Origin: Alphaproteobacteria bacterium
Lineage (GTDB): Bacteria; Pseudomonadota; Alphaproteobacteria; UBA9219; RGZA01
Direction of reading: 5' to 3'
Assembly: GCA_028278105.1 (NCBI GenBank)
Contig: JANQEX010000075.1
Location: 1 to 48,674, forward strand
Length of the DNA stretch: 48,674 nucleotides
Positions 13,039 to 28,627 of the stretch are shown piece by piece. The position numbers were made by a program, and so were the translations under genes. Below the pieces are notes generated by a model. It had not been told where the DNA came from. It did no database searches and worked only from the letters and a program-made list of their open reading frames with translations. Position 1 is the stretch's first letter, and every line of letters starts with the position of its first letter.

Positions 13039-13665
13039 ATGTCCTTCGACGAAGTGCAATTTCCCCTGAGGGTCGGTTTCGGCAGCGCGGGCGGGCCCGG
13101 CTTTTCAACCGAGATCGTCACCGTGGACGGCGGTCATGAGCGCCGCAACCAGAACTGGAGCCAGGCGCGGCGGCGCTTTGATGCGTCCACGGGTCTGCGC
13201 GGCGCCGCCGACGTGGCGGCGCTGCTGGCCTTCTTTCATGCGCGGGCCGGACGGGCGCGGGGGTTCCGCCTGCGCGACTGGAGCGATTACTCAAGCGCCG
13301 CCGACGGCACCGGAACCCCCGCCTTCGACGACCAGGGCGTGGGCAGCGGCGACGGTACGGCCACCGATTTTCAGCTCAAGAAAACCTACAGCAGCGGCGG
13401 CGCGCAGCACGCCCGCGCCATTCGCAAACCGGAGACCGGCAGCGTGCTGATCGGCCTGGACGGCACGGCGCAGGCCAGCGGCTGGAGCGTGGACACCACC
13501 ACCGGCATCGTCAGCTTCGCCACGCCGCCCGCGGCGGGCGTGGCGGTGACGGCGGGATACATCTTCGACGTGCCGGCGCGCTTCGATGCCGACCAGCTCA
13601 GCCTGACGGCGGAGAATTTCCAGGGCTTCCAGGCGGGCGTGCCGCTGGTGGAAATAAGGGTGTGA
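13039..13665 (+). CDS. distal tail protein (DUF2460, GTA gp12-like)
   Basis: 208 residues. 'FDEVQFPLRVGFGSAGGPGFSTEIVTVDGGHERRNQNWSQARRRFDASTGLRG' and 'DVAALLAFFHARAGRARGFRLRDWSDY' are textbook DUF2460. The C-terminal 'PARFDADQLSLTAENFQGFQAGVPLVEIRV' completes the family. The protein forms the ring joining tail tube to hub. The following gene, DUF2163, lies 730 bp away across a tandem repeat array instead of being adjacent. Confidence 0.94.
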   Translation: MSFDEVQFPLRVGFGSAGGPGFSTEIVTVDGGHERRNQNWSQARRRFDASTGLRGAADVAALLAFFHARAGRARGFRLRDWSDYSSAADGTGTPAFDDQGVGSGDGTATDFQLKKTYSSGGAQHARAIRKPETGSVLIGLDGTAQASGWSVDTTTGIVSFATPPAAGVAVTAGYIFDVPARFDADQLSLTAENFQGFQAGVPLVEIRV

Positions 13666-13670
13666 GCGGA

Positions 13671-14380
13671 GCGTGAAAAAGTGAAACGTGAAGAGTTGAA
13701 ACGTGAAAAGTGAAAAGTGAAGGGTGAAGAGTGAAAAGACAACAAATGGCGTCATCCTGAAAAAGCGAGCAACGCGAGCTTTATTCAGGACCTCTCTCTT
13801 ATAATGGCGCAAGATTCCGGATAAGGGCTCGCTGCCGCTCGCCCTTTCCGGAATGACGGCTTCGGGGGAGTGAAAAGTGAAGGGTGAAGAGTGAAAAGAC
13901 AACAAATGGCGTCATCCTGGAAAACGCGCGAAGCGCGTTTATCCGGGATATCTTTCCCATCATGGCACAAGATTCCGGATAAGGGCTCGCTGCCGCTCGC
14001 CCTTTCCGGAATGACGGCTTTGGGGGAGTGAAAAGTGAAGGGTGAAGAGTGAAAAGACAACAAATGGCGTCATCCTGGAAAACGCGCGAAGCGCGTTTAT
14101 CCGGGATCTCTTTCCCATCATGGCACAAGATTCCGGATAAGGGCTCGCTGCCGCTCGCCCTTTCCGGAATGACGCTTTGGGGGAGTGAAACGTGAAGAGT
14201 GAAGAGTGAAAAGACAACAAATGGCGTCATCCTGGAAAACGCGCGAAGCGCGTTTATCCGGGATCTCATGCCATTATGGGGAAGATATCCCGGATAACCG
14301 CCTGCGGCGGTTTCCGGGATGACGCTGTTTTCTTACTCTTCACTCTTCACCCTTCACTTCTCACTCTTCACCTTTCACTC
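13671..14380. repeat. about 159-bp tandem array plus heptamer repeats
   Basis: At least three full units, defined by the landmark ACAACAAATGGCGTCATCC at about 13740, 13900, 14058 and 14215 (spacing 157-160 bp). Each unit holds a heptamer run (GTGAARR), a palindrome GTCATCCTGGAAAACGCGCG...CGCGTTTATCCGGGAT, and a second palindrome ATTCCGGATAAGGGCTCGC...CCTTTCCGGAATGACG. The first unit has a variant first palindrome. The array ends with another heptamer run (TTCACYC) just before the DUF2163 start. Open frames on the minus strand are by-products. No gene is seen. Confidence 0.9.
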
Positions 14381-14396
14381 ATCCAGACGGCTATCC

Positions 14397-15236
14397 ATGA
14401 AAACCCTCTCCACCGCCCTTGCCGCCCATGTGCGGCAGGAACTCACCACCCTTGCCACGCTGATAAAGATCACGCGGCGCGATAACGTGGTGCTGGGCTT
14501 TACCAGCCATGACGCCGATCTGACGGTTGATGGCGTGACCTACGCCGCCGACAACAGCTTTCAGGCCAGCGCCCTGGAATCGCGCGCCCGGCTTTCCACC
14601 GACAACCTGACAATCGCCGGAATCCTTTCCAGCGCGGCGGTGAGCGGCGCGGCGCTCGCCGCCGGCGCGTACGACCATGCGCGGGTGGATGTCTACCTGT
14701 GCAACTGGGCGGACCTGTCGCAAGAGGTGGCGCAGCTTCGCCGCGGCTGGCTGGGCGAGGTGACGCGCGACGGCGGCGCCTTTCGCGCCGAGCTGCGCGG
14801 GCTGCATGACCTGCTGCAACGCCCCGTCGGCGCGCGGGTGACGCCCGAATGCCGTCATGATCTTGGCTCCGCCGCATGCGGGGTGAACCTGGCGGCCCTG
14901 ACGGTGACGGGGACGGTGACCTCCGTTTCCGCGAACTGGCAGGTGGGCGATACGTCGCGCGGCGAGGCCGACGGGCATTTCGACGGCGGGGTTCTGACCT
15001 TCACCAGCGGCGCGAATGCCGGCTTCGCCGCCGAGATTCGCGGCTATGCCGGGAAGGTTTTCACGCTCTGGCTTTCGCCGCCGCAAGCGCCCGCGATGGA
15101 GGACGCCTATAGCGCCACGCCCGGTTGCGGCAAGCGCCTGGCCACCTGCCGCGACCGCTATGGCAACAGCATCAATTTCGGCGGCTTCCCCCATCTGCCG
15201 GGGCTGGACGCGATCTTGAACTACCCGGATTCGTGA
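14397..15236 (+). CDS. tail hub protein (DUF2163 / phage BR0599 type, GTA gp13-like)
   Basis: 279 residues starting at ATG 14397; the frame upstream is repeat sequence. 'LTTLATLIKITRRDNVVLGFTSHDADLTVDGVTYAA' and 'STDNLTIAGIL' form the N-terminal DUF2163 domain. The C-terminal domain carries 'VTPECRHDLGSAACGVNL' and 'ATPGCGKRLATCRDRYGNSINFGGFPHLPG', where the conserved cysteines probably bind iron or a cluster as in related hub proteins. It follows gp12 as in GTA. The toxin gene begins 7 bp later. Confidence 0.94.
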   Translation: MKTLSTALAAHVRQELTTLATLIKITRRDNVVLGFTSHDADLTVDGVTYAADNSFQASALESRARLSTDNLTIAGILSSAAVSGAALAAGAYDHARVDVYLCNWADLSQEVAQLRRGWLGEVTRDGGAFRAELRGLHDLLQRPVGARVTPECRHDLGSAACGVNLAALTVTGTVTSVSANWQVGDTSRGEADGHFDGGVLTFTSGANAGFAAEIRGYAGKVFTLWLSPPQAPAMEDAYSATPGCGKRLATCRDRYGNSINFGGFPHLPGLDAILNYPDS

Positions 15237-15243
15237 GGCGCGC

Positions 15244-15888
15244 ATGCTTTTGGAAAAGATCATCAAACTGCGCCAGGACGCCGAATATTGCGCCTTTGTT
15301 CATTATATCCGCAAGGGGCGGGCGCCGCGGGAACTGGCGGACGTGGTGGGCCTTGCCCGCGCGATAGAGGAATATTTCAAGTATAATCCCAACTGGCAGG
15401 ACCAGCCGCGCGTCCCGGCCGGCAATCCCGACGGCGGGCAATGGACCGACGGCGGCGGCGGTGGGGAAGACGGGACGGGAGATGAGGGGGGTGGCTCCGG
15501 CTCCGGCATCGCGGTTGATGAACTGATCGACTCCTCGGCCCTGATTCTTTCTTTTCTGCCCGCCGGGCGCGTGGCGCTGAGCGTACGCCGTTTTATCCAG
15601 GCCCTGCGGGCCGGGCGGCGCGGGGCGGCATGGACTTTGGGGAGGCACAAATCTCCAAAAAAATGGAGCAACAGGCTGGTAGGCCGCGATTGGACTTATG
15701 ATGAAATTACCCATATCCTTAAAACAGGGAAGAAATTCCCGGCGCCGAACAAGGTCAATCCCGGCAACAAGGCGGTAAGGTATCAGGATAAAAAAACCGG
15801 ACGCTTTGTCGTACGCGATGAGGTGACGAAGGAAATATTGCAGGTTAGTGGAAGGCGTTACAAACCCGAAAAGCCAGTCGGGGAATGA
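15244..15888 (+). CDS. colicin-E5-like tRNase toxin with phage-associated N-terminus
   Basis: 214 residues in three parts. Residues 1-52 are helical. The motif QPRVPAGNPDGGQWTDGG (54-71) and a Gly-rich linker (to ~88) resemble tags found in phage-encoded cargo and minor head proteins. Residues 97-125 are hydrophobic/helical. Residues 137-210 match colicin-E5-type ribonucleases: RDWTYDEITHIL, then 'PGNKAVRYQDKKTGRFVVRDEVTKEILQVSGR'. Colicin E5 cuts the anticodon of Q-base tRNAs (Tyr, His, Asn, Asp); the same activity here is inferred. Base composition becomes AT-rich near codon 133, suggesting a swapped toxin tip. The gene starts 7 bp after the hub gene and is followed by the small-gene array. 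Confidence 0.75.
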   Translation: MLLEKIIKLRQDAEYCAFVHYIRKGRAPRELADVVGLARAIEEYFKYNPNWQDQPRVPAGNPDGGQWTDGGGGGEDGTGDEGGGSGSGIAVDELIDSSALILSFLPAGRVALSVRRFIQALRAGRRGAAWTLGRHKSPKKWSNRLVGRDWTYDEITHILKTGKKFPAPNKVNPGNKAVRYQDKKTGRFVVRDEVTKEILQVSGRRYKPEKPVGE

Positions 15889-15896
15889 GGTGGACT

Positions 15897-16163
15897 ATGG
15901 ATTCAAAAACCGTGGAAATCTTTGTGCCTTTGCTGGACGAAGGGGTGCCAACCGTTCGTGGGACGATGGCCATACCGCTTGGCAAGGATCTGTACAGGGT
16001 TTTGCCGACCCCGAATTATGACCCGGAAGACGAAATATGGGAATTTTTGCCGGACTCGATTGTTCGTTGCGTCTGGATGAAAGGCGAAGGGGAACGCTAT
16101 CTTCAGGCGACAGAGGTGCAAGGCCCGGACGGGAATTTCATTCCTTCCGGCGGGGCCACATGA
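15897..16163 (+). CDS. family A small protein, copy A1 (candidate immunity)
   Basis: 88 residues from ATG 15897 (GAGGTGG just upstream); an earlier in-frame ATG at 15885 overlaps the toxin stop. The sequence reads 'VEIFVPLLDEGVPTVRGTMAIPLGKDLYRVL', 'NYDPEDEIWEFLPDSIVRC', 'ATEVQGPDGNFIPSGGAT'. This predicted small beta protein belongs to a widespread uncharacterised type ('PLLDEG..', 'WEF.PGS.VRC'). It is the first gene after the toxin, 8 bp downstream, the usual place for a cognate immunity gene. Immunity proteins of colicin E5 type are of similar size (about 83 residues). Function is inferred from context. Confidence 0.7.
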   Translation: MDSKTVEIFVPLLDEGVPTVRGTMAIPLGKDLYRVLPTPNYDPEDEIWEFLPDSIVRCVWMKGEGERYLQATEVQGPDGNFIPSGGAT

Positions 16164-16193
16164 AGCTCCGGGTCAGGCTGTTGAGTGGGGGAA

Positions 16194-16254
16194 ACTATTC
16201 TTCTTGAAAAAGAAGCGCCAAATCTGCTGGTGAGGGAAAGGCCGGAGCGGCTTC
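16194..16254 (+). pseudogene. relic of family A upstream of B1
   Basis: The stretch CTTCTTGAAAAAGAAGCGCC followed by AAATCTGCTGGTGAGGG reads LLEKEAPNLL in one frame. It matches the relic at 17804 and, more distantly, the PLLDEG.P segment of family A. It precedes B1 as the 17804 relic precedes B3, so the relic and the B gene were probably copied as one block. Confidence 0.5.
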
Positions 16255-16485
16255 ATGAAATGGATTGCTGATACAACAACCCCAAGACGACTGCATTGCG
16301 AAATCGAGCGGCAGGTATTGAATAGTCTGACGCCCGGACAGGAAACCCGTTTTGGTTATTTTCTTTACATATGGGAAAATGGAAAAGGGCTGGCCGACGA
16401 AATGCAGGATGATCTTGAAACGGCTATTGACGGGGCACTCAAAAGATATGGCGTGCCCAAGGATTCTTGGAAAAAGGTTGAGTAG
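16255..16485 (+). CDS. family B small protein, copy B1 (candidate immunity/accessory)
   Basis: 76 residues: 'MKWIA', a short variable part, then 'GYFLYIWENGKGLADEMQDDLETAIDGALKRYGVPKDSWKKVE'. Two homologues follow at 16601 and 17896, and the C-terminal '(Y/F)GV.(K/R)(D/E)(S/A)W' signature is kept in all. The leader and first 15 bp match those of B3 closely. I recognise a common uncharacterised fold with a helix ending in 'FGVP..W', but no assigned function. Confidence 0.65.
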   Translation: MKWIADTTTPRRLHCEIERQVLNSLTPGQETRFGYFLYIWENGKGLADEMQDDLETAIDGALKRYGVPKDSWKKVE

Positions 16486-16600
16486 GTCCTGGCGGGTCAT
16501 TCCCTAAGGAGGCGGCCTTAAGTACATCCCAAAATGGAGGCAAAGAACCAGACGGTGGCGGAAATCACGGATATTATTTTAGGAACGGAGGGGAAATCTC

Positions 16601-16828
16601 ATGAAATGGACTGCCTTGATGGCCGGGGAAACAGAAAGGAAGTTTCTCATCGAGCCTGAGATATATACCGACCTGTCAACGTCGGAAAAGGAAACGCAGT
16701 ATAAGATATACGTCTATGAAAACGGTATTGACAAATACGATTACCTGTTGCCGACACGCGACGACGCGATTGAATTTGCGCATGAAAAATTCGGCGTTTC
16801 CCGCGAAGCATGGCAAAGGGTAGAATAG
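16601..16828 (+). CDS. family B small protein, copy B2
   Basis: 75 residues: 'MKWTALMAGETERKFLIEPEIYTDLSTSEKETQYKIYVYENGIDKYDYLLPTRDDAIEFAHEKFGVSREAWQRVE' in overview, sharing 'YENGIDKYDYL' with B3 and 'FGVSREAWQRVE' with both. GGAGGGG lies about 7 bp before the ATG. The 115-bp gap before it has no intact gene, though one frame reads Gly/Asn-rich 'GGKEPDGGGNHGYYF' and might be a toxin-linker remnant. Confidence 0.65.
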   Translation: MKWTALMAGETERKFLIEPEIYTDLSTSEKETQYKIYVYENGIDKYDYLLPTRDDAIEFAHEKFGVSREAWQRVE

Positions 16829-16878
16829 AAAAACCATGACGAACGATGCGAACGAAAAAGAAAGGTAAGGGGCCTGAA

Positions 16879-17157
16879 ATGAAGAGTGAAGATACAGTCG
16901 AAGTTTTCGTCCCTTTGCTTGACGAAGGAACGCCCACGCTTAGGGGTACACAGGCCCTTCCTTTGGGTGAAGGGTTATACAAGGTCCTTTTACCTGTTTC
17001 GAATTACGATCCTGAAGATGAAGTTTGGGAATTTCCGCCCGGTTCAATCGTGCGTTGTGTCGAAACAACCAGCGCCATCACGGGAAAGAAAATTCTTAAG
17101 GCCAATGAAATGCAAAGGCCGGACGGAACATTCGTGCGCACTTGTGGCGGCACCTGA
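16879..17157 (+). CDS. family A small protein, copy A2 (candidate immunity)
   Basis: 92 residues from ATG 16879 (AAGGGG upstream, and the same start context as A1); an in-frame ATG at 16846 is possible. 'VEVFVPLLDEGTPTLRGTQALPLGEGLYKVL', 'NYDPEDEVWEFPPGSIVRC', 'ANEMQRPDGTFVRTCGGT'. It differs clearly from A1/A3 in nucleotides, so it is an older duplicate. A2 and A4 form one subgroup (KSEDTVEVF start, PDGTFVR end); A1 and A3 form the other. Confidence 0.65.
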   Translation: MKSEDTVEVFVPLLDEGTPTLRGTQALPLGEGLYKVLLPVSNYDPEDEVWEFPPGSIVRCVETTSAITGKKILKANEMQRPDGTFVRTCGGT

Positions 17158-17166
17158 CGGTGATGC

Positions 17167-17445
17167 ATGGACCGTGACATGGATTCAAAAACCGTGAAAA
17201 TCTTTGTGCCTTTGCTGGACGAAGGGGTGCCAACCGTTCGTGGGACGATGGCCGTACCGCTTGGCGAGGATCTGTACAGGGTTTTGCCGACCCCGAATTA
17301 TGACCCGGAAGACGAAACATGGGAATTTTTGCCAGGATCAATCGTCCGTTGCGTCTGGGAAGAGAATGAGGGGAAGCACTATCTGGAGGCGACAGAGGTG
17401 CAAGGCCCGGACGGGAATTTCATTCCTTCCGGCGGGGCCACATGA
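17167..17445 (+). CDS. family A small protein, copy A3 (near-identical to A1)
   Basis: 92 residues if started at ATG 17167, or 88 at ATG 17179, the position equivalent to A1. The first ~155 bp and last ~55 bp of the 267-bp common part are almost identical to A1. The middle (residues ~53-75 of the A1 numbering) differs strongly: WMKGEGERYLQ in A1 against WEENEGKHYLE here. The flanking 3' DNA is also shared with A1. This looks like a recent duplicate with change focused on one surface patch. Confidence 0.7.
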   Translation: MDRDMDSKTVKIFVPLLDEGVPTVRGTMAVPLGEDLYRVLPTPNYDPEDETWEFLPGSIVRCVWEENEGKHYLEATEVQGPDGNFIPSGGAT

Positions 17446-17481
17446 GGCTCCGGGCCAGGCTGTTGAGTGGGGAAAACTATA

Positions 17482-17790
17482 ATGCTGACGAAAGACCAAG
17501 ACAGGGGGCCTGAAATAAAGAGTGAAGATACAGTCGAAGTTTTCGTCCCCTTGCTCGACGAAGGAACTCCAACAGTAAGGGCAACCCAGGCCATTCCGTT
17601 GGGAGACGGTTTATACAAGATTCTGCCGGCGCCGGATTACGATTCGGAGGGTGAAACATGGGAATTTCCTCCGGGTTCGGTTGTCAGATGTGATGTGGCA
17701 ACGGATTTTCGCAATGGCGAGAAATTTCTACGTGCTTATGAAATGCAAGGCCCAGACGGAACATTCGTGCGTTCCAGTGGAGGAACGTGA
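17482..17790 (+). CDS. family A small protein, copy A4
   Basis: 102 residues from ATG 17482; a GTG at 17467 is an alternative. The ATG used by A2 has become ATA here (Ile before KSEDTVEVF), so the start has moved upstream into sequence derived from the A3 downstream flank. 'VEVFVPLLDEGTPTVRATQAIPLGDGLYKIL', 'WEFPPGSVVRC', 'YEMQGPDGTFVRSSGGT'. Candidate immunity paralogue. Confidence 0.65.
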   Translation: MLTKDQDRGPEIKSEDTVEVFVPLLDEGTPTVRATQAIPLGDGLYKILPAPDYDSEGETWEFPPGSVVRCDVATDFRNGEKFLRAYEMQGPDGTFVRSSGGT

Positions 17791-17803
17791 ATTTTTGAAC
17801 CGT

Positions 17804-17899
17804 ATGCCAAATTTGGCAAGCGTCAAAATCCATGCGCCTCTTCTTGAAGAAGGAGCGCCAAATCTGCTGGCGGGGGAAAAGACAGGAGCGGCTCCATGA
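17804..17899 (+). pseudogene. truncated family A relic
   Basis: A 31-codon frame (MPNLASVKIHAPLLEEGAPNLL...) ending in TGA at the start of B3. 'VKIHAPLLEEGAPN' matches the first strand of family A ('VKIFVPLLDEGVPT'). The rest of the domain is missing. It overlaps the B3 start by 4 bp (ATGA), so it could survive as a translational leader for B3. Confidence 0.6.
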
Positions 17900-18108
17900 A
17901 ATGGATTGCCCGGCATAGTGGTCCATTAGGCAGGCTTGATTGCACGATTAAACATGACAAATACGTGGGCTATTACCTTTATATCTACATCAATGGAATT
18001 GACACTTACGACTATCTTCAAGACAGTTTCGAAATAGCTGTTGATCAGGCGCTTGAACAGTTCGGCGTTCCAAAGGATGCGTGGCGGAAGGCGGACGGCG
18101 CGGAATAA
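17896..18108 (+). CDS. family B small protein, copy B3
   Basis: 70 residues: 'MKWIARHSGPLGRLDCTIKHD', then 'YYLYIYINGIDTYDYLQDSFEIAVDQALEQFGVPKDAWRKADG'. It is the last gene of the array. The upstream 60 bp (GCGCCAAATCTGCTGGCGGG and following) are shared with B1. Downstream it converges on the lipoprotein gene 23 bp away. Confidence 0.65.
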   Translation: MKWIARHSGPLGRLDCTIKHDKYVGYYLYIYINGIDTYDYLQDSFEIAVDQALEQFGVPKDAWRKADGAE

Positions 18109-18131
18109 CCCGCGCGGCCTGGTCCATTAGC

Positions 18132-18530
18132 CTAGGGATATTCCTGCAAGGGACGGTAGATATCGTCGCGCCGCCGCCGGGTTTTCAGGAAATGCAGGCA
18201 GGCGTTCAGGTTGCCGATCGTGTCGACCATCACGACCCTGCCGTTGTCGAACAGGAAACGGGTGGTGCAGCGGTCCCATCTTCGGATGCCCTCGGTGGAC
18301 ATGACGCGCGCGCGGCTGGCGTATTCGAGCGAGGTCAGGCCCCTGTCAATCGTTATCTTGCGCGAGGGCGCGCCGTAATAAAACAGGATGTCGCCGCGCG
18401 TGCGGCCGAGATAAATCTGGCTGAGCCTCGGCCTTGCGCGCGCCTGAACGTCCTCCTCCGTCAACCGCGGCCCGTGGCCGATGCAGGCGGAAAGAAGCAA
18501 AACAGCCGGAGCAAGGAAAAGGTGACGCAT
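18132..18530 (-). CDS. small lipoprotein (BamE/SmpA-like)
   Basis: 132 residues, the only gene on the minus strand within the cluster. The N-terminus MRHLFLAPAVLLLSAC is a lipoprotein signal with lipobox LLSAC, so Cys16 would be lipidated. The mature part, 'YLGRTRGDILFYYGAPSRK..DRGLTSLEYASRARV' then 'TTRFLFDNGRVVMVDTIGN', has the layout of BamE/SmpA-type domains ('G.t..dvl..yG.P', ending in '.F.dg.v'). Its ATG overlaps the ATG of the divergent tape-measure gene by two bases, so both cannot have leaders free of the other's coding sequence. It may be a surface-exclusion or adsorption factor, or a host gene caught by rearrangement. Confidence 0.65.
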   Translation of the reverse strand: MRHLFLAPAVLLLSACIGHGPRLTEEDVQARARPRLSQIYLGRTRGDILFYYGAPSRKITIDRGLTSLEYASRARVMSTEGIRRWDRCTTRFLFDNGRVVMVDTIGNLNACLHFLKTRRRRDDIYRPLQEYP

Positions 18531-19203
18531 GGCGGCAGAGGATATATCCCGGAATGCTCTTGACCGGATCGGGGACACGAAAGGAAAGCTCGGCGAAGTG
18601 CTGGTCCAGCTGGAACAACTGGAGTCTAGCCTCAACCGGCCTTTTGCCGCAATGGGCGGGGGGCTGGAGCGGCTGGGGGACAGAATCTCCCTGGTCTTCG
18701 ACAGGATCAGCCGGCTCAACAAGGCGATTGAAAAGGATTTTACCTCCGGGATCACGCAGGCCATCCGCAGCGGCGGGGATTTTTCCAATCTGTTCGACCG
18801 GCTGCGCGGCACGATTGAGGATTTCGTCATCCGCCTCGGCGTGGTGAACCCGCTTTTCAACGCGTTGTACGGCACGTCGAAGGTGGAGCTTTCCGATACC
18901 CGCCCTTCCTATTTCGCGTCGGGAGGGATTCTGGGCGGGATCCTTTCCCTGTTCGAGGCGCGGGCGGCCGGCGGGCCGGTGCGCGCCGGCGTGCCCTATC
19001 TGGTGGGCGAGCGCGGGCCGGAGCTTTTCGTGCCGCGGGCGGCGGGACGCATTACGGCGAACGCGGCGCTAGCGGCTTCGGCCGCGCCGGTCCATGTGAC
19101 CATGAACATCGCGACGCCCGACGCCACGTCGTTCCGCGCCTCGCAGGCGCAGATCGCGGCCCGGATGCTGGACGGCATCCGCCTGGCGCAGAGGATAAGG
19201 TAG
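18529..19203 (+). CDS. short tail tape-measure protein (GTA gp11-like), displaced
   Basis: 224 residues, close to the size of the Rhodobacter GTA tape measure. Residues 1-60 are coiled-coil-like, followed by 'LFDRLRGTIEDFVIRLGVVNPLFNALYG' and the hallmark 'FASGGI..', 'GGPVRAGVPYLVGERGPELFVPRAAGRI'. The C-terminal 'APVHVTMNIATPDATSFRASQAQIAARM' is also typical. In GTAs gp11 precedes gp12; here it lies 5 kb downstream, after gp13 and the toxin island, just before gp14's repeat-filled upstream region. The ATG at 18529 overlaps the divergent lipoprotein start. Confidence 0.85.
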   Translation: MAAEDISRNALDRIGDTKGKLGEVLVQLEQLESSLNRPFAAMGGGLERLGDRISLVFDRISRLNKAIEKDFTSGITQAIRSGGDFSNLFDRLRGTIEDFVIRLGVVNPLFNALYGTSKVELSDTRPSYFASGGILGGILSLFEARAAGGPVRAGVPYLVGERGPELFVPRAAGRITANAALAASAAPVHVTMNIATPDATSFRASQAQIAARMLDGIRLAQRIR

Positions 19204-19233
19204 AAAAAGTCTTTTCGTGCCGTGGGGTTTTGC

Positions 19234-19313
19234 GAAAGGGTCGGGAAGGCCGGAAGGGTCCAAAAGGTCAATAAAAAAGACCCTCCTGACCCTTAATGCC
19301 CCTTGAGACCCTG
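19234..19313. repeat. 9-bp tandem array with inverted partner, copy 3
   Basis: AAGGGTCNN nonamers, an A-rich loop, and the complementary CCTCCTGACCCT and CCTTGAGACCCT arms. The inner loop and right arm match the 12894-12960 copy nearly base for base. A GGGAGGGG palindrome follows at 19320-19338. Confidence 0.8.
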
Positions 19314-19368
19314 TTGCACACCCCTCCCAGGGAGGGGAGTCTGGGCGGGCCAAAGGAAGGGGAACCTT

Positions 19369-19502
19369 GGTGGTGTCTCAGTTTGAAAAATATCATGCCC
19401 GCCCCCGCCTCCGCGAGGGCAGGCTCCGGCGGGCATCCCATTGTTTTTAATCAAATGGGACCCCCGCCTTCGCGGGGGTGATTTCCAAAGTGAGACACTA
19501 CC
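19369..19502. mobile_element. MITE-like element, GGTAGTG family, copy a
   Basis: 134 bp. The left terminus is GGTGGTGTCTCAGTTTG; the right terminus is the complement of GGTAGTGTCTCACTTTGG. It is flanked by the perfect 8-bp direct repeat GGAACCTT at 19361-19368 and 19503-19510. The interior holds 'CCCGCCTTCGCGGGGG'-type hairpins and no coding frame. It lies in the 357-bp gap before the NlpC/P60 gene. Confidence 0.9.
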
Positions 19503-19560
19503 GGAACCTTTTGCCGCTTTTCACTTTCGATTCTGCTCATAACTGAACACGGAACATGCC

Positions 19561-19971
19561 ATGGACATCCCGCGCATGATCGATGCCGCGCGCGCCTGCG
19601 TCGGCACGCCTTTTTGCCATCAAGGGCGCGCGCCAGGGGCGGGGCTGGACTGCATCGGCCTTGTGATCTGCGCCCTGCGCGCGGGCGGGATGGAGGGCCT
19701 GCGCGACCGGCGGAACTATTCCCGCCTGCCGGAGCCGGGCGCGCTGCGGCGGGCTCTGGAAACGCATGGATTTGCGCAGGCGGGCGGGCCGGAAGAAGCG
19801 GGCGATATTCTGCTGTTCCGCTTCAACCGCGCGCCGCAGCACGTGGCGCTGGCGGCGGGCGCGGGGCGGATGATCCACGCCTATGCGCCGCTGGGGCGCG
19901 TGGTGGAATGCGCCATCGGCCCCGGCTGGCGGCGGCGGCTGGTGGGAATCTGGCGGTTAAGCGCCCGGTAA
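19561..19971 (+). CDS. tail-associated NlpC/P60 peptidase (GTA gp14-like)
   Basis: 136 residues. 'DAARACVGTPFCHQGRAPGAGLDCIGLVICALRAGG' carries the catalytic Cys in LDCIGL (Cys36). The His lies in 'RAPQHVALAAGAGRMIHAY', with both QHV and MIHA present. Such proteases cleave cell-wall peptides so the tail can pass the peptidoglycan. It is in the normal position between the tape-measure and hub genes. 'RRRLVGIWRL' closes the domain as in GTA gp14. Confidence 0.92.
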   Translation: MDIPRMIDAARACVGTPFCHQGRAPGAGLDCIGLVICALRAGGMEGLRDRRNYSRLPEPGALRRALETHGFAQAGGPEEAGDILLFRFNRAPQHVALAAGAGRMIHAYAPLGRVVECAIGPGWRRRLVGIWRLSAR

Positions 19972-20089
19972 TTGGTGCTCGGCAAAAACTTCAGCCAAGC
20001 CAAATAAGAAATTTGTTTAGGGAAGGAATTAAAGAATGGGGTCTTCCTGTTTCCGTTCATGCGAAAGGCAAAGCTTTTCAAGTCCGACG

Positions 20090-20131
20090 CTTCACCCCAC
20101 CCCCAACCCCTCCCTCAAGGGGAGGGGAGTC
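20090..20131. repeat. G/C-rich palindromic half element
   Basis: CACCCCACCCCCAACCCCTC followed by CCTCAAGGGGAGGGGAG, the reverse complement of the left arm of the 7962 element. It occupies the space between the peptidase and hub genes. Confidence 0.75.
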
Positions 20132-20212
20132 CGGTTTTTTCGCTTTGCATAAGTTTTTCCGCAATTGGCAATTGAACCGAGCACTAAGCACCGGCAACCA
20201 AGGATTTTCAAA

Positions 20213-23200
20213 ATGGCTTCCATTCTTCTGACCGTCGCGGGCAACGTGGCGGGCAACGCCATCCTGCCCGGAATCGGCGGCGCGATTCTCGGCGGGCTCG
20301 GCGGCATGGCGGGGTCGCGGATCGACAACGCCCTGTTTGGCGGCGATACGGCGTTCAAGGGCCCGCGGCTTGAAAACCTGAAGGTGCAGGATTCCAGCTA
20401 TGGCAACGGCATCCCCACGCTTTACGGCACGGTGCGCGTGGCGGGCAACGTGATCTGGGCGAGCGATCTGATCGAGACGATCAGTTCGGAGTCCGCCGGC
20501 GGCAAGGGCGGCGGCGGCGCGACGGTGGAAAAGGCGTCCTACGCGGTGGATTGCGCGATTGCGCTTGGCGCGGGCCCCATCGGCGGCATCCGCACCATCT
20601 GGGCCGACAGCAAGCAGATCTACAGCGATGGCCTCTGGGCCGACGGCGTGTTGTGGGATTCGGAGATTTACCTGGGCGCGGACGGCCAGGCGCGCTCGCC
20701 CCTGATGGAAAGCGCCTTGGGCGCGGACAATGTCCCGGCCTACCGGGGTCTTGCCTATGTGGTTCTGCACCGCTTGCAGCTTGGCAATTTCGGCAACCGC
20801 ATTCCCAACCTGACCTTCGAGGTAACCGCGCCGGAGGCCGGCGCGAATCCGCTCTGGCTCGGCGGCGTGAATCCCGGCATCGGCGCGCGGGTGTCCAACA
20901 CGCTGTGCTCGCAAAGCGTGCCGCCGGTTGCCAGCGCGACGCGGGGCGGCCGGATTCTGCGCGCGGTCGTGGGCGGCTTTCTGAACGAGGAGCCCGACAG
21001 CCGCTTCACCGCCGTGGAGTATGACGTGAGCGGCGACGCGCCGGAGGAAATCGCCCGCGCCACCAGCGCCGCGATCAGCGGGCATTATGATATCGAGAGC
21101 CTAAGCCTTGCCGCCGACCCGCCGGGCGCGAAAATCGTTTTCTTCATGCAGTATTTCGCGGGCGCCGCCGTGGCGCTCGCGCTTTACGACATCGCCGGCG
21201 CCGGCTTCGGCGCGGTGTGCGAGGATGCCCATGGGTCCTATGAAGGCGGGGCGCAGGTCGCCTGGCTGGACGACCAGCGCGTCGCCGTGTGGGAAAAGCA
21301 GGCTGCCGGCAAGGGCGTGCGCGTTTACGCCGTGGCCGGGCTGTCGCTCACGCCCGTCGGCTCCTTCGATGTGTGGGGCGCAAGCGCCGCCACGCGCCAT
21401 CCCCTGCCTTTTGCCCATATGGCGCCGCTTCCCGACGGGCTGTTTATCCTGGCGGGCGACAGTTCCGGCACGCCGTCCACCATCTACGGCCGCGCCCTGC
21501 AATGGCAGAACAACAGCCTGACGGTCGGCGCCGAGCAGGTGGTGAGCGCCAGCGTTTATACCGGCGCGTCGGCGCAGAACACGCTGCTGTCCATCGGCGG
21601 CGGCGAGATGGTTCTGGCGCGCGCCACCGGCGCCACGCTGCGGCTGATCTCGTTCATCCCCTCGACGGGCGGCGTGACCATCACGCGCGACTGGACGGTG
21701 ATCACCCTGACTCCCAACGGGCAGGTCAGCGTGAACGTGTCGAACGGGCGGCTGTTCTTCCTGCATGTGGCGTTTTCAACCGGCACGTTCCGCTATGGCG
21801 AGATCGGGCTGGAGGCGGGGAGCTTTTCGCTTTTGCTGGACACCACCGCGGTGGGCGGGGATTATTTCAACCCCGCCGGCGGCTATGCGGGCGCGCATGC
21901 GCTGGGGCGCTCGCGCTACATGGTGCTGAACGCCAATGTCGCCGACCTGATGACGCTCGTGGGGCTGTTTGAAAAGGCTTCGGCCGCGCAGGACCTGGCG
22001 GATGTCGTGGCCGATATTTTGCGGCGCGCGGGCTATGCGGAAAGCGATTACGACGTGAGCGCGCTGTCCGGCCTCCGCGTGAGCGGCTATGCCGTGCAGG
22101 GCCCTTCGCCCGCGCGCAACGCGCTGGCCCCGCTTGGGGAAGCTTTCAATTTTGACCTAGTTGAAAGCGATGGAATCCTGAAAGCCAGGGTTTATTCGGC
22201 GACGGCGGATGCCACGGTGGACGCGACGGAGTTGCGGGCGGTGGCCGAAGATGGCGAGCCGCCGCCTCGCGTCGCCAGCAGGCGCGCGCAGGAGCTGGAC
22301 CTGCCGCGCGAGGTGGTGGTGAGCCATCTGGACCCCGAACGGGATTACCAGAAAGGCAGCCAGCGCGCCCGCCGCGCGCAAGGTCCGGCGCATGCCAGCG
22401 AGGAGCTTTCGATCCCCCTGGCGCTTTCGGCGGAAGAGGCCAAGGCGCTGGCGGAAAACAAGCTGTTCCGCGCCTGGGGCGAACGGGAGGCGCTGGACAT
22501 CAGCCTGTCGCGCGCCTTCGTGGCGCTGGACCCCGGCGACGTGGTGAGCGTGGAAAGCCGCCTGATGCGTCTGACCGGCCTCGCCGCTTCCGGCGGGCGC
22601 ATCGCGGCGGAAGGCGTGGCGCTGGACGCCGCGGCCCTGGGCGGAAACCCGGACGCCCTGGCGGATTCCGGCCAGGGCGGCCAGCGCATTGCCATGGAAG
22701 CGGTGGCGACCACGCTCCACCTGATGGACCTGCCCCTGTTGCGCGAGGCCGACGACCAGCCCGGCTATTATGTAACGGCCAGCGGGCGCGCGGGCTGGAA
22801 AGGTGCCGCGCTTTACCGCTCCTACGACGATACAAGCTGGACGCAGACCGCCCGCTTTACCCTTCCCGCCACCTGCGGCGTCGCCATCACGGCCTTGCCG
22901 GCGACCCGCGCGGAATATCCCGACCGGGCGAACAGCGTGACCATCGGCCTGCTGCGCGGCAGCGTTTCGGGCTGCACCGAGGCCCAATGGCTGGCGGGCG
23001 CCAATGCCGCCCTGCTGGGCGATGAAATTATCCAGTTCGGCGCGGTCGGCCTGAATGCCGACGGGTCGGTGACGCTGTCGGACCTCCTGCGCGGGCGCAG
23101 GGGAACGGAAAGCGCCATGAACGGCCATGGCGTGGGCGAGCGCTTTGTCCTTTTGCAAAACGAGACGGCACGCTTCCTGCCGCTGACCCTGGGCGACCGG

Positions 23201-23617
23201 GACCGGACCATCCATTTCCGCGCGCCGTCCACGGGGCAGGAGCTGGACAGCCTGGCCAGCGCCCCGTTCGCGCCGCAGCTCCGAACAATAGCGCCGCTTG
23301 CGCCCGCGCATCTTGCCGGCGCGCGCGACGATTCCGGCAACCTGACCGTGAGCTGGGTGCGCCGCGCCCGCAAAAACGCCGAATGGGTCGACGGCATCGA
23401 CGTGCCGCTGGACGAGGACGCGGCGCTCTACGATCTCGACATTCTGGATGGCGCCAACGTGGTGCGGCAGTTCCAGGACCTGACATCCGCCAGCGCCGGT
23501 TACACGGCGGCGATGCAGGCGGAAGATTTCGGCGCGGCGCAAGCGGCGGTGAGCGTCGCCGCATACCAGAAAAGCGCGCGTTACGGCCGGGGCGCGGCCG
23601 CGGCCGGGACGGTATGA
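20213..23617 (+). CDS. tail hub / host-specificity protein (GTA gp15-like megaprotein)
   Basis: 1134 residues from ATG 20213 (AAGGA 8 bp upstream). The N-terminal Gly-rich segment 'GNAILPGIGGAILGGLGGMAGSRIDNALFG' is followed by 'DSSYGNGIPTLYGTVRVAGNVIWASDLIE' and 'SYAVDCAIALGAGPIGGIRTIWADSKQIY', the conserved hub start. Residues ~310-600 are predicted beta-propeller-like (repeating 'LPDGLFILAGDSSG', 'GGGEMVLARATG'). The C-terminal part has 'DVVADILRRAGYAESDYDVSAL', 'PREVVVSHLDPERDYQKGSQ', 'DLLRGRRGTESAMNGHGVGERFVLL'. It forms the cell-contacting tip. It is shorter than Rhodobacter gp15, and I do not see the TIM-barrel glycosidase-like domain of that protein. Confidence 0.88.
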   Translation: MASILLTVAGNVAGNAILPGIGGAILGGLGGMAGSRIDNALFGGDTAFKGPRLENLKVQDSSYGNGIPTLYGTVRVAGNVIWASDLIETISSESAGGKGGGGATVEKASYAVDCAIALGAGPIGGIRTIWADSKQIYSDGLWADGVLWDSEIYLGADGQARSPLMESALGADNVPAYRGLAYVVLHRLQLGNFGNRIPNLTFEVTAPEAGANPLWLGGVNPGIGARVSNTLCSQSVPPVASATRGGRILRAVVGGFLNEEPDSRFTAVEYDVSGDAPEEIARATSAAISGHYDIESLSLAADPPGAKIVFFMQYFAGAAVALALYDIAGAGFGAVCEDAHGSYEGGAQVAWLDDQRVAVWEKQAAGKGVRVYAVAGLSLTPVGSFDVWGASAATRHPLPFAHMAPLPDGLFILAGDSSGTPSTIYGRALQWQNNSLTVGAEQVVSASVYTGASAQNTLLSIGGGEMVLARATGATLRLISFIPSTGGVTITRDWTVITLTPNGQVSVNVSNGRLFFLHVAFSTGTFRYGEIGLEAGSFSLLLDTTAVGGDYFNPAGGYAGAHALGRSRYMVLNANVADLMTLVGLFEKASAAQDLADVVADILRRAGYAESDYDVSALSGLRVSGYAVQGPSPARNALAPLGEAFNFDLVESDGILKARVYSATADATVDATELRAVAEDGEPPPRVASRRAQELDLPREVVVSHLDPERDYQKGSQRARRAQGPAHASEELSIPLALSAEEAKALAENKLFRAWGEREALDISLSRAFVALDPGDVVSVESRLMRLTGLAASGGRIAAEGVALDAAALGGNPDALADSGQGGQRIAMEAVATTLHLMDLPLLREADDQPGYYVTASGRAGWKGAALYRSYDDTSWTQTARFTLPATCGVAITALPATRAEYPDRANSVTIGLLRGSVSGCTEAQWLAGANAALLGDEIIQFGAVGLNADGSVTLSDLLRGRRGTESAMNGHGVGERFVLLQNETARFLPLTLGDRDRTIHFRAPSTGQELDSLASAPFAPQLRTIAPLAPAHLAGARDDSGNLTVSWVRRARKNAEWVDGIDVPLDEDAALYDLDILDGANVVRQFQDLTSASAGYTAAMQAEDFGAAQAAVSVAAYQKSARYGRGAAAAGTV

Positions 23618-23618
23618 C

Positions 23619-23897
23619 ATGAGCGGGCGCAGCTTCACCCTGGGCCGGCATGTTTCCCTCAGCCTTGTCCTGGCGCTGTTTTTGCAGGCGGCGGCGGTGA
23701 TCTGGTGGAGTTCGGCCCACGAGACGCGCGGCCATTTCCGCGACCAGAAAATCCGGGTCGTCGAGCAGAGGCTGGACATGGAGAGTGCGCGGCAGCTCGA
23801 TATCCTACAGCGTCTGGCGCGCCTGGAAGCGCTGGCCGAAAGCAATGCCGGCGTGCTGCGGCGCATTGAAACCCGCCTGAAGAAGGACGCGCCATGA
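23619..23897 (+). CDS. small membrane protein of the lysis/tail end module
   Basis: 92 residues: one N-terminal membrane segment (HVSLSLVLALFLQAAAVIWW) followed by a charged coiled coil (VVEQRLDMESARQLDILQRLARLEALAESNAGVLRRIETRLKK). It begins 2 bp after the hub stop and overlaps the endolysin start by 4 bp. Size and topology suggest a spanin-like or holin-accessory protein. No family is recognised. Confidence 0.75.
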   Translation: MSGRSFTLGRHVSLSLVLALFLQAAAVIWWSSAHETRGHFRDQKIRVVEQRLDMESARQLDILQRLARLEALAESNAGVLRRIETRLKKDAP

Positions 23898-24409
23898 CCG
23901 GTCCCGTGAACATGAACGGTCCCGTGAAAAGGCCGGTCAGCCGGAAGGGGCTGGACCTGATCAAAAAATACGAGGGGCTTTCGCTGAAAGCCTATCGCTG
24001 CCCGGCGGGCGTTCTGACCATCGGCTATGGCCACACGTCCAGCGTCGCCGAAGGCGACGCGATTACCGAAGAACAGGCCGAAAAGCTGTTGCGCGCCGAC
24101 CTGCGCGCGGCGGAGGACGGCGTGCAGCGTCTTGTCTGCGTGGCGCTTTCCGACAACCAGTTCGCGGCGCTGGTGAGCTTTGCCTTCAACGTGGGATTGG
24201 GGGCGCTGTCGCGCTCGACGCTTTTGAGCCTCCTCAACCGCGGATGGTATGACCAGGTTCCCGCCCAGTTGCTGCGGTGGACCCGCGCCGGCGGGCGCGT
24301 GCTGGCCGGCTTGCAGCGGCGCCGACGCGACGAGGCGGCGCTGTGGAGCATGCCAGAAATCAGAGGTCAGAAGTCAGAAATCAGAAATAGGGATGAAGAC
24401 AATGCTTGA
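23894..24409 (+). CDS. phage endolysin, GH24 lysozyme
   Basis: 171 residues. The muramidase motif shows Glu27 in 'KKYEGLSLKAYRCPAG', Cys36 in the place of the T4 Asp20, and Thr42 in 'LTIGYGHT', keeping the T4 E-D-T spacing of 9 and 15. 'LVSFAFNVGLGALSRSTLLSLLNRGWYDQVPAQLLRW' completes the fold. No signal peptide, so release depends on the holin. The final ~16 residues (EIRGQKSEIRNR...) come from a 7-bp tandem array. It cleaves peptidoglycan at lysis. Confidence 0.93.
   Translation: MTGPVNMNGPVKRPVSRKGLDLIKKYEGLSLKAYRCPAGVLTIGYGHTSSVAEGDAITEEQAEKLLRADLRAAEDGVQRLVCVALSDNQFAALVSFAFNVGLGALSRSTLLSLLNRGWYDQVPAQLLRWTRAGGRVLAGLQRRRRDEAALWSMPEIRGQKSEIRNRDEDNA
24352..24386. repeat. 7-bp tandem array, copy 4, translated
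   Basis: Five heptamers within the endolysin 3' end, nearly the same series as at 12796. They encode the same peptide (EIRGQKSEIRNR) at the C-terminus of an unrelated protein. Confidence 0.85.
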
Positions 24410-24803
24410 AACCATCCTTGGCAGCGTCGCAAAGCTGCTGGATAAAATCATTCCCGATCCCGCGGCCAGGGACGCCGCCAAGCTGGCCCTGTTGCAGGCC
24501 GAAAACCGGCAGGCGCTTTCCGAGATGCAGGCGCAGCTTTCCGCCATTCTGGCGGAAGCGCGCAGCGCCGATCCCTGGACCAGCCGCGCGCGGCCCAGTT
24601 TTTTGTATGTCATGTATTTTATTGTGCTGGCCTGCGTGCTGGGCGGGATTGCGGGCATCTGGTTCCCGGCCGAGACGCAAGCCGCGGCGCGGAACATAAA
24701 CGCGCTGTTGAAGGCGATTCCTTCCGATCTCTACACCCTGTTCGGGCTCGGCTATCTGGGCTATGCCGGCGCGCGAAGCTTTGACAAGTGGCGGGGGAAG
24801 TAG
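24402..24803 (+). CDS. holin, GTA-holin-3TM-like
   Basis: 133 residues. A helical N-terminal part (AKLLDKIIPDPAARDAAKLALLQAENRQALSEMQAQLSAILAEARS) is followed by 'DPWTSRARPSFLYVMYFIVLACVLGGIAGIWF' and 'LYTLFGLGYLGYAGARSFDKW'. This matches the 3TM-holin family of alphaproteobacterial phages and GTAs, whose members permeabilise the inner membrane so endolysin can escape. ATG 24402 has GGG 9 bp upstream; ATG 24393 in frame is possible. The start overlaps the endolysin gene. It ends the particle cluster. Confidence 0.88.
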   Translation: MLETILGSVAKLLDKIIPDPAARDAAKLALLQAENRQALSEMQAQLSAILAEARSADPWTSRARPSFLYVMYFIVLACVLGGIAGIWFPAETQAAARNINALLKAIPSDLYTLFGLGYLGYAGARSFDKWRGK

Positions 24804-24810
24804 AATTCAG

Positions 24811-24838
24811 GATCTAGGAGCTAGGATCCAGGGGCTAG
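24811..24838. repeat. 7-bp tandem array (GATCTAG/GAGCTAG type)
   Basis: Four exact heptamers, GATCTAG GAGCTAG and two variants, run into the left end of the adjacent MITE-like element. Same period as the RTCAGAR arrays but a different unit. Confidence 0.75.
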
Positions 24839-25067
24839 GTTCAATGAACAATGACCAACACGAACATTCCCACAACCCGGCTTCGCTAAAGCTCCGCCGG
24901 GTCGTTTTGCAAGCTCGTCTTGCGTAGCCGAAGGCGAAGCAGGGAAGCGGGAATCCCATTTATCTTCAAAAACAAATGGGATTCCGGGTCGCGGTTGCCG
25001 CGCAACCTTGCCCGGAATGTTCATCTCGTCTTTTCAATGACTTGAGTTTAATTGTCCATTGAACCTA
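24836..25067. mobile_element. MITE-like element, TAGGTTCAATG family, copy 1
   Basis: 232 bp with ends TAGGTTCAATGAACAAT and ATTGTCCATTGAACCTA (one mismatch), bordered by TA. The interior carries 'CCCGGCTTCGCTAAAGC' and 'GCCGAAGGCGAAGCAGGG' modules and a 'GGTCGCGGTTGCCGCGCAACC' hairpin. No transposase. A second copy of exactly the same length and direction is at 25660. Confidence 0.88.
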
Positions 25068-25092
25068 GTTACTTTCATAAAAGTATTGTAAC
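25068..25092. promoter_or_regulatory. inverted repeat upstream of orphan gene
   Basis: GTTAC and GTAAC separated by 15 A/T-rich bases, between the MITE and the 25126 start. It could be an operator; it is too weak for a terminator. A clear CGGAGGAAAC ribosome site lies further on at 25111-25120. Confidence 0.35.
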
Positions 25093-25125
25093 TTCTCCTT
25101 CTGTCAAACTCGGAGGAAACGTCAC

Positions 25126-25662
25126 ATGGGACTTGATATTTTCAAAAGCCGGTACGCTACAGCAAGAGGAAAAACCCAGCCTGGACAGGCGATGGGAGTA
25201 AGTGAAGAAACAACCGTCATTGGCATTGAACCTATAAAAACAAGATTTTTAAGGGCGAAGAGATTAATTGTGAAGTTTGCAAATGGGGAATCCGTGATAG
25301 TCCATCCAAACCATTTTCCTGCCGATAAAGTCCCCGTGGGCATGAAGGTGACCCTTGAATGGGTGGCAAATCTTGCCAAAACGCCTCTTCTGGCATATAG
25401 GGAAGCTCAGTTTGGTTATAGAGATGCAGGTATAGACCTATGTCATACTGTTGCGCAAATGGGTGGCCGTGATGTTGGTATGAATGTTGGTCTGCATCCA
25501 TGGACAGGTTCATATGGGCGATTTTCGGGGAAATTTGCCGGGTTTTCCGCTGCAAAGCGACCGAGAAGGCTAGTTTGGCCCTATTTGTCTGGCAAGGGAA
25601 GGGCCCCCGCCGCCTGGAGGATGGGGAAAGGAACCTTAACTATATCACGACTTGATTCCTAG
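25126..25662 (+). CDS. orphan hypothetical protein flanked by twin MITEs
   Basis: 178 residues, unrecognised. The middle has a beta-rich domain (TRFLRAKRLIVKFANGESVIVHPNHFPADKVPVGMKVTLEW). The last third is Gly/Arg-rich and low in predicted structure (GRDVGMNVGLHPWTGSYGRFSGKFAGFSAAKRPRRLVWPYLSGKGRAPAAWRMGKG). GGAGGAAAC gives a strong start signal. The stop codon TAG is formed by the first bases of the downstream element. It is more AT-rich than its neighbours and lies alone between 232-bp direct repeats, so it is probably acquired. No function can be assigned. Confidence 0.7.
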   Translation: MGLDIFKSRYATARGKTQPGQAMGVSEETTVIGIEPIKTRFLRAKRLIVKFANGESVIVHPNHFPADKVPVGMKVTLEWVANLAKTPLLAYREAQFGYRDAGIDLCHTVAQMGGRDVGMNVGLHPWTGSYGRFSGKFAGFSAAKRPRRLVWPYLSGKGRAPAAWRMGKGTLTISRLDS

Positions 25663-25891
25663 GTTCAATGAACAATGACCAACACAAACATTCCCGCGAC
25701 CCGGCTACGCTAAAGCTACGCCGGGCCTTTTTGCAAGTGCGCCCCGCGAAGCCGAAGGCGAAGCAGGGAAGCGGGAATCCCATTTGTTTTCAAAAACAAA
25801 CTGGATTCCGGGTCGCGGTTGCCGCGCAACCTTGCCCGGAATGTCCGTTTGGCTTTTTCAATGACTTAAGTCTAATTGTCCATTGAACCTA
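25660..25891. mobile_element. MITE-like element, TAGGTTCAATG family, copy 2
   Basis: Same length, orientation and ends as copy 1, with scattered substitutions. Its first TA supplies the stop codon of the 25126 gene. An eight-base repeat tract (AACACCCG twice) follows at about 25897-25920. Confidence 0.88.
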
Positions 25892-25926: not shown

Positions 25927-26301
25927 CTAGTCTTTCTTCCCGCCCGCTTCGGGCTCCGTCTTCGCATTCACCTGGGTGATGGTGCTTTTGACCACCGTGA
26001 CCTTCACGCCGTCCGCGATTTCGACCACCGCTTCGTCGCCCTCCACCTTCGCCACCGTGCCGATGAGGCCGCCGCCGGTGACCACCCGGTCGCCCCGGCG
26101 CAGGCCTTCGACCATGGCCTTGTGTCGCTCATATTTCTTTTGCTGCGGGCGGATGAGCATGAAATAGAAAACGCCGAAAATAAGCAGCAGCGGCAGGAAC
26201 TGCATCAGCGCCCCTTCCATCGTGTTCTGCCCGTCGGGCGGCGTGGCGGCGGCGGGAGTTTCCGCGGTTTGGGCATAGGCCTTGGAAATCAGGGAAAACA
26301 T
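25927..26301 (-). CDS. yajC: Sec translocon accessory protein YajC
   Basis: 124 residues from MFSLISKAYAQ. A single membrane segment, 'FLPLLLIFGVFYFMLIRPQQKKYERHK', is followed by the conserved cytoplasmic domain 'GLRRGDRVVTGGGLIGTVAKVEGDEAVVEIADGVKVTVVKSTI'. YajC associates with SecDF-SecYEG. In most bacteria secD follows directly; here the downstream side is occupied by the MITE and orphan gene, so secDF is either elsewhere or was separated by the insertion. The C-terminus is a short charged tail. Confidence 0.95.
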   Translation of the reverse strand: MFSLISKAYAQTAETPAAATPPDGQNTMEGALMQFLPLLLIFGVFYFMLIRPQQKKYERHKAMVEGLRRGDRVVTGGGLIGTVAKVEGDEAVVEIADGVKVTVVKSTITQVNAKTEPEAGGKKD

Positions 26302-27402: not shown

Positions 27403-28359
27403 ATGGAAAACAGTGTTCTTGTTATAACCGGCCCGACCGGCTGCGGCAAATCCGCGCTCGCGCTGGCGCTGGCCGAAGCGCGGGGCGGAACGATCATCAA
27501 CGCGGACTCCATGCAGGTTTATGACCTCTATCCCCGCCTCACCGCCCAGCCGGACGAAAAAGACCGCGCCCGCGCGCCGCACCGGCTGTATTCCTGTGTC
27601 TCGCCGCCGGAAAAATGCTCGGCCGGGCTTTGGGCGCAAAGCGCCGAGACCGTAATCGCCAATATTCTGGCCAAAGGCGGCCTGCCCATTTTGACCGGCG
27701 GCACGGGGCTTTATCTTGAATTTCTGTTGATGGGACGTTCCGGCATTCCCGGCGTGCCTGAAGAAACCCTGATAAAAGCCCGTCAGGATTATGAAAAACT
27801 CGGCGGCGAAGCCGTGCTTGAGAGGCTGAAGGCTGCCGGCCCGGAAACGGCGGCGCGGTTGAATCCCGGCGATTCCGCGCGGGTGATACGGGCCTGGTCC
27901 GTCTATCTTGAAACCGGCAAGGGCATCGGCCACTGGCAGAAGGAAGGTTTTCGCCCGCCCGCGCATGAATGGAGCCACAAAACCATTTTCATGCTGCCGG
28001 GACGCGCGCGGCTTTATATCGGCATCGACCGGCGCTTTTCAAAAATGGTGGAGAACGGCGCGCTGGAGGAAGTAGAAGCCGCCATGGCGCGCAATATTCC
28101 GGCGGACCACCCCGCCCACAAGGCCCACGGCGCGCGCGAACTGCAACATGTGATTGAAGGGCGCTGGACGCTGGAGCAGGCCATTGCCCGCGCGCGCCAG
28201 GTGACGCGCAACTACGCCAAGCGCCAGTTCACCTGGCACAAAAACCGCTTCATGAAGAACGAGGAAAAAGCGGGACGGCCGTTTCTGGCCCTTGAAGGCG
28301 CGGATTTGGCGGAAAATCTGGCGGTCTCTATGAAATTTTCTGTTCTGACTAGAGTCTGA
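27403..28359 (+). CDS. miaA: tRNA dimethylallyltransferase MiaA
   Basis: 318 residues. It transfers a dimethylallyl group to A37 of tRNAs reading UNN codons. The P-loop GPTGCGKS is at 9-16. 'NADSMQVYDLYPRLTAQP' is the substrate-specific DSMQVY motif, 'GGTGLYLE' is near 103-110, and 'HGARELQHVIEGRWTLEQAIARARQVTRNYAKRQFTWHKNRF' is the C-terminal tRNA-binding signature. ATG 27403 starts the conserved sequence. The last codons and the TGA stop come from the left end of a MITE, so the native C-terminus has been replaced by a few residues. Confidence 0.95.
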   Translation: MENSVLVITGPTGCGKSALALALAEARGGTIINADSMQVYDLYPRLTAQPDEKDRARAPHRLYSCVSPPEKCSAGLWAQSAETVIANILAKGGLPILTGGTGLYLEFLLMGRSGIPGVPEETLIKARQDYEKLGGEAVLERLKAAGPETAARLNPGDSARVIRAWSVYLETGKGIGHWQKEGFRPPAHEWSHKTIFMLPGRARLYIGIDRRFSKMVENGALEEVEAAMARNIPADHPAHKAHGARELQHVIEGRWTLEQAIARARQVTRNYAKRQFTWHKNRFMKNEEKAGRPFLALEGADLAENLAVSMKFSVLTRV

Positions 28360-28627
28360 ACTCAATTAGAAATGGATCAAATCAAACAGATAACTGCTCA
28401 TTCCGGCGCCCGGCTTCGCCTGGCGGCTACGCCGAGGTCTTGGCGCATCCGTCGCGCCGAAGCTTGCGGAGGCGGAGAAGCCGGAATCCAGCAACCGCCG
28501 AAGGCGGTTGCATGTTGCCGAAGGCAACATGCTGGACCCCGGCTGGAGCCTGCCCCTGCGAAAGCAGGGGCCGGGGTGAGAAGCTGTTTTTTGAATGAAA
28601 AGCTTGTTTAATTGAGTCCAGACCCTA
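28350..28627. mobile_element. MITE-like element, TAGGGTCTG family, copy 2
   Basis: 278 bp. The ends are TAGAGTCTGAACTCAATT and AATTGAGTCCAGACCCTA, matching the 11597 element, again within TA. The interior differs: it contains a CCGGCTTCGCC..GCCGAAGCTTGCGG arm, a perfect 'GCAACCGCCGAAGGCGGTTGC' hairpin and an adjacent 'ATGTTGCCGAAGGCAACAT' hairpin. It covers the miaA stop codon. Confidence 0.88.

Follow-up and report, generated by a model that had tools for sequence, protein, structure and literature searches.

The window, i.e. the whole analysed stretch of 48,674 nucleotides (contig JANQEX010000075.1 of the alphaproteobacterial assembly GCA_028278105.1), contains between a holin gene and yajC an orphan open reading frame (ORF) that is flanked by two copies of a MITE. 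The features of this locus are as follows.

24399..24803, + strand: holin gene (GTA_holin_3TM, gene-transfer-agent type), left neighbour
24804..24835, + strand: filler between the holin gene and MITE copy 1, with the dispersed repeat GGATCTAGGAGCTAGGATC as its core
24836..25067, + strand: MITE copy 1 (TA at 24836-24837, element at 24838-25065, TA at 25066-25067)
25068..25125, + strand: ORF leader of 58 bp, low in GC, with a ribosome-binding site
25126..25662, + strand: orphan ORF of 178 codons (178 aa), low in GC, with a TAG stop formed from a TA and the first G of MITE copy 2
25660..25891, + strand: MITE copy 2 (TA at 25660-25661, element at 25662-25889, TA at 25890-25891)
25927..26301, - strand: yajC, convergent right neighbour (5' end approximate)

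Both MITEs are 228 bp long, lie on the same strand and are bordered by a TA on each side, which brings them to 232 bp with both TAs. The original prediction had described two direct 232-bp copies of the same length, direction and ends, and its coordinates, lengths, directions and ends are all correct. The terminal inverted repeats, GGTTCAATGAACAAT...ATTGTCCATTGAACC, span 15 bp with one mismatch. The two copies align without gaps at 89% identity; copy 1 is 90-91% identical to copies on contigs C26, C104 and C4, and copy 2 matches the C26 copy at 94% identity. In a tree of the copies, whose branch supports are moderate, the two window MITEs are not paired. The left ends of both carry an A at position 9 and a G at position 15, a combination absent from every other copy examined; this common variant may have arisen by gene conversion between neighbours or by common descent of that end.

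The ORF has a GGAGG 8 nt upstream of its ATG, which agrees with the earlier description of a cargo gene with its own ribosome site. An operator-like palindrome claimed at the same place is not significant, as 17 of 200 shuffled sequences fold equally well or better. The ORF has a GC content of 47.9% and a GC3 of 39.9%, whereas 422 genes of this genome average 62.4 +/- 4.4% and 71.5 +/- 9.5%, respectively. Among first-order Markov sequences matched in composition, 0.7% contain an equally long frame without a stop. Of the six frames, the annotated one has the best codon-use score, yet one below that of native genes. Judged by its sequence, the ORF is probably a real, acquired gene that would be translated. 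The protein had been said to belong to no recognised family, and no homologue appeared in any collection searched: there was none in Pfam, PHROGs, NCBIfam or PADLOC, nothing significant among PDB sequences (best E 0.17), none in 59 relatives or 385 genomes of the class, and nothing in tblastn searches of phages and plasmids or in pattern scans of viral and GTDB contigs. Weak matches in three genomes, from the relatives and the class, were judged to be chance: one lies in the frame of gatA, the second is on the opposite strand of an electron-transfer-flavoprotein gene, and no alignment could be recovered for the third. The structure prediction reached a mean pLDDT of 40.9, too low for a structure search.

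The junction between the holin gene and yajC

The region to the left of the ORF (window 13039-24803) is a gene-transfer-agent-like tail and lysis cluster that is conserved in several relatives. Its genes match Rcc01698_C, Phage-tail_3, NlpC/P60, DUF2460, Gp84, an endolysin and GTA_holin_3TM. The ORF thus does part this cluster from yajC, as had been proposed; what had been called a phage cluster consists of gene-transfer-agent-like tail, endolysin and holin genes. The usual partner of yajC, secD, had been thought missing, and is in fact present in the genome at the start of contig C110. This contig starts inside secD, at about codon 56 (positions 1-300 of the examined stretch L133), and not at a MITE; its start has no 99-bp overlap with any other examined contig end.

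In relatives of the same family, the holin gene is followed by convergent pheA and kdsB, and yajC by secD. In the window's own genome, pheA lies at the end of contig C91, beside the same dispersed repeat that is found 3' of the holin gene; the C91 end at pheA has a 99-bp overlap with contig C56. Because both adjacencies of the relatives, holin-pheA and yajC-secD, are broken here, we regard the holin-yajC junction as a lineage-specific rearrangement. Low-GC DNA starts and stops exactly at the two MITEs, and the filler outside them measures 32 and 35 bp.

The dispersed repeat GGATCTAGGAGCTAGGATC is located at window positions 24808-24832 and from position 11253 onwards in stretch L132; a copy lies 3' of pheA on C91. 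It is rich in CTAG, has 15 matches with at most two errors in the examined stretches, and often directly adjoins MITE insertions.

The MITE family, its ends and its target

The census of the family is based on 74 examined stretches (0.72 Mb, mostly chosen around MITEs) and on genome-wide pattern counts. Allowing at most one mismatch, a terminal pattern of 16 bases has 148 matches in the 2.05-Mb genome, far more than chance would give, while the reversed control pattern has 0; these 148 terminal ends imply about 75 or more copies. By length, the copies form classes of about 159, 181, 228 and 250 bp, which differ by internal blocks. Among the outer ends in the examined stretches, 115 of 124 are preceded by TA, with C or T before the TA at 110 of them (CTA at 83, TTA at 27), and the position following the TA is mostly G or A. 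From these bordering bases the target is YTAR, of which the TA alone is duplicated.

The IS630 family habitually duplicates TA and prefers CTAG targets. The elements described here are short, lack a transposase, carry terminal inverted repeats, occur in many copies, duplicate TA and use a CTAG-like target, as expected of IS630-type MITEs. From the TA, the target and the terminal repeats only, we infer that the family is IS630-like, and with it the family of the transposase. A DDE_3 transposase (PF13358) gave no match in the window's own genome, the assembly of which has gaps, so that a partner elsewhere is possible; as far as this assembly goes, the MITE is hence considered non-autonomous, and its origin from IS630 is putative. 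A search for an autonomous partner by exact matching of the terminal repeat to GTDB contigs returned two matches, both from unrelated phyla and not above chance level.

Of 19 relatives, 18 lack the terminal pattern, and the remaining one has one match with a single mismatch. A genome of the same genus has only internal palindromic blocks of the MITE in common. Furthermore, Rfam gave no match, and scans for promoters and terminators produced signals at the level of shuffled sequences. The family is new, apparently species-specific, and of a known kind.

Two described families are close to it in different respects. RUP of pneumococcus is a 107-bp MITE that is similar to the ends of IS630-Spn1 and has TA in its target (PMC2229807). 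Like RUP, the present element is short and non-autonomous, and has many copies, terminal inverted repeats and a TA in the target; it differs in its size classes (159, 181, about 228 and about 250 bp), in its terminal repeats and in that no partner transposase was found in the genome. MITEPsy1 of Pseudomonas syringae, which is tied to an IS5-type element, uses CTAG or YTAA targets and makes a 4-bp duplication (PMC3189936). Its target is very near the YTAR preference of the window family, whereas here TA alone is duplicated and the flanking bases differ between the two sides.

A second MITE-like family was observed as well. Its ends are TCTGGACTCAATTA, preceded by CTAGGG or TTAGGG, and 33 of them occur in the examined stretches. 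One member is located at window positions 28354-28622, near the end of miaA, and MITEs of the first family often adjoin members of the second.

MITE ends as stop codons

The downstream MITE had been described as forming the stop codon of the ORF. This is correct: the TAG consists of the TA of the target duplication at 25660-25661 and the first G of copy 2. When the flanks of copy 2 are joined, they read GATTCC TAA, i.e. the stop of the ORF is restored, and therefore copy 2 neither cut the ORF short nor created its end. Without this copy, the ORF and yajC would be convergent genes with 35 bp between their stops. Since the target is YTAR and the element starts with GG, an in-frame insertion must hit a TAA or TAG and always re-creates TAG.

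The same is found across the family. In the examined stretches, 15 of 116 usable outer ends, not counting that of the window ORF, provide a called gene with its stop codon. Given how large a part of the accessible YTAR sites lies in stop codons, about 5.7 would be expected. This is an enrichment of about 2.6 times (Fisher p about 0.0008), whose size is rough because the gene caller is home-made, the stretches were selected around MITEs, and each element contributes two ends that depend on each other. In all nine cases with both ends present, one of them the window ORF, joining the flanks yields TAA or TAG. Pfam recognises nine of ten checked proteins with MITE-made stops, among them a pyridoxamine-phosphate oxidase, an adenylosuccinate lyase, ZnuA and a polyprenyl synthetase, and several of the profiles are complete to the last residues. 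The MITE-made stop is a family-wide consequence of the YTAR target and not a trait of a cassette.

In stretch L114 (6707-6865), a single MITE makes the stops of two convergent genes, one with each end; one gene encodes 206 aa and has no Pfam match, the other is of the ZnuA family.

Origin of the arrangement

What remains to be explained is why an ORF of foreign composition lies between two MITEs. We think it likely that two IS630-type MITEs inserted independently around an orphan gene that had been acquired and lay at a rearranged junction. According to this model, the gene would have been acquired horizontally and would have come to sit at the rearranged junction between the gene-transfer-agent-like cluster and yajC. 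Two of the high-copy, apparently species-specific, non-autonomous MITEs would then have inserted separately on either side of the ORF, each duplicating the TA inside a YTAR target; the second would have landed in the TAA stop and turned it into TAG, leaving the protein unchanged. Two independent insertions are the simplest account, and a composite reading is not needed. When 75 copies are placed at random in the genome, 1.6 pairs with a gap of at most 600 bp are expected, 0.8 of them in the same orientation, and the probability of at least one same-orientation pair within 600 bp is 0.56 by chance. Other close MITE pairs enclose ordinary native genes of 64-66% GC. Two observations hint against separate insertions: the limits of the low-GC DNA coincide exactly with the MITEs, and the left-end variant is common to both copies. 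No genome with the ORF besides the window's was found, nor a strain with one or no MITE at the locus that would show the order of events.

The original prediction had seen the pair as a composite mobile unit. In such a unit, both MITEs and the ORF would have moved together, either because a transposase supplied in trans worked on the outer ends or because a MITE-ORF circle underwent homologous recombination with a MITE already resident, a route that has been proposed for some TIME-COMP elements. Units of this kind are known: TIME-COMP and integron mobilization unit composites are of Tn3 type with 5-6 bp duplications, and in some of them one block recurs at several sites with matching outer duplications (PMC13367494, PMC4133298). 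The window resembles them in that two MITE copies surround unrelated cargo, for which a direct orientation is possible, and the outer ends here are intact and bear their TA. In contrast to these composites, it has IS630-type borders and a single occurrence, with neither a discriminating outer duplication specific to the unit nor a block present at several sites. The TA borders are as compatible with a single as with a composite insertion, because TA is found at MITE ends in general. No second MITE-ORF-MITE block was found: looking for the same cassette elsewhere, as had been suggested, returned one occurrence only across the own genome, relatives, the class, and phage, plasmid, viral and GTDB collections. 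The two MITEs are not sisters, a pair like theirs is expected by chance, and a simple insertion of the unit leaves unexplained why the holin gene and yajC, separate in relatives, are adjacent here. That the elements are MITEs and that the gene is an orphan of foreign composition stands, but no positive test supports a composite unit. We consider joint movement unlikely; it retains a low probability in view of the left-end variant common to both copies and of the low-GC segment, whose limits coincide exactly with the MITEs. An extended version, in which a 1,056-bp IS630-type MITE composite brought the orphan gene and recombination of its MITEs with resident copies joined the gene-transfer-agent-like cluster to yajC, is doubtful.

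It is also rather improbable that the locus is the scar of a junction, where breakpoints at dispersed MITEs joined the holin and yajC ends and left behind a small part of a longer foreign stretch. Repeats abound in the genome, the 3' ends of pheA and of the holin gene carry the same dispersed repeat, and the holin-pheA and yajC-secD adjacencies of relatives are both broken. Yet the ORF is complete, with a ribosome-binding site and a stop at the restored TAA, unlike a random fragment, and the reciprocal junction is not visible, the sequence upstream of secD being absent from the assembly. A chimaeric window contig (C67) joined at MITE repeats is very improbable: although the genome is fragmented into 119 contigs, many of which end inside MITEs, and both family-level adjacencies are broken at the locus, contig ends overlap by exactly 99 bp at 17 end pairs, which points to k=99 in the assembly graph, and the window MITEs share identical stretches of at most 66 and 78 bp with other examined full-length copies, too short to merge paths at this k.

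When a MITE is present in many copies, two that lie close together can readily pass for a mobile cassette; at this locus the copy number undoes that inference. More general and more testable than the pair is the stop-codon habit, which bears on the annotation of gene ends. An element that targets YTAR and starts with GG re-creates stops when it inserts into TAA or TAG; gene ends are hence harmless landing sites for it.
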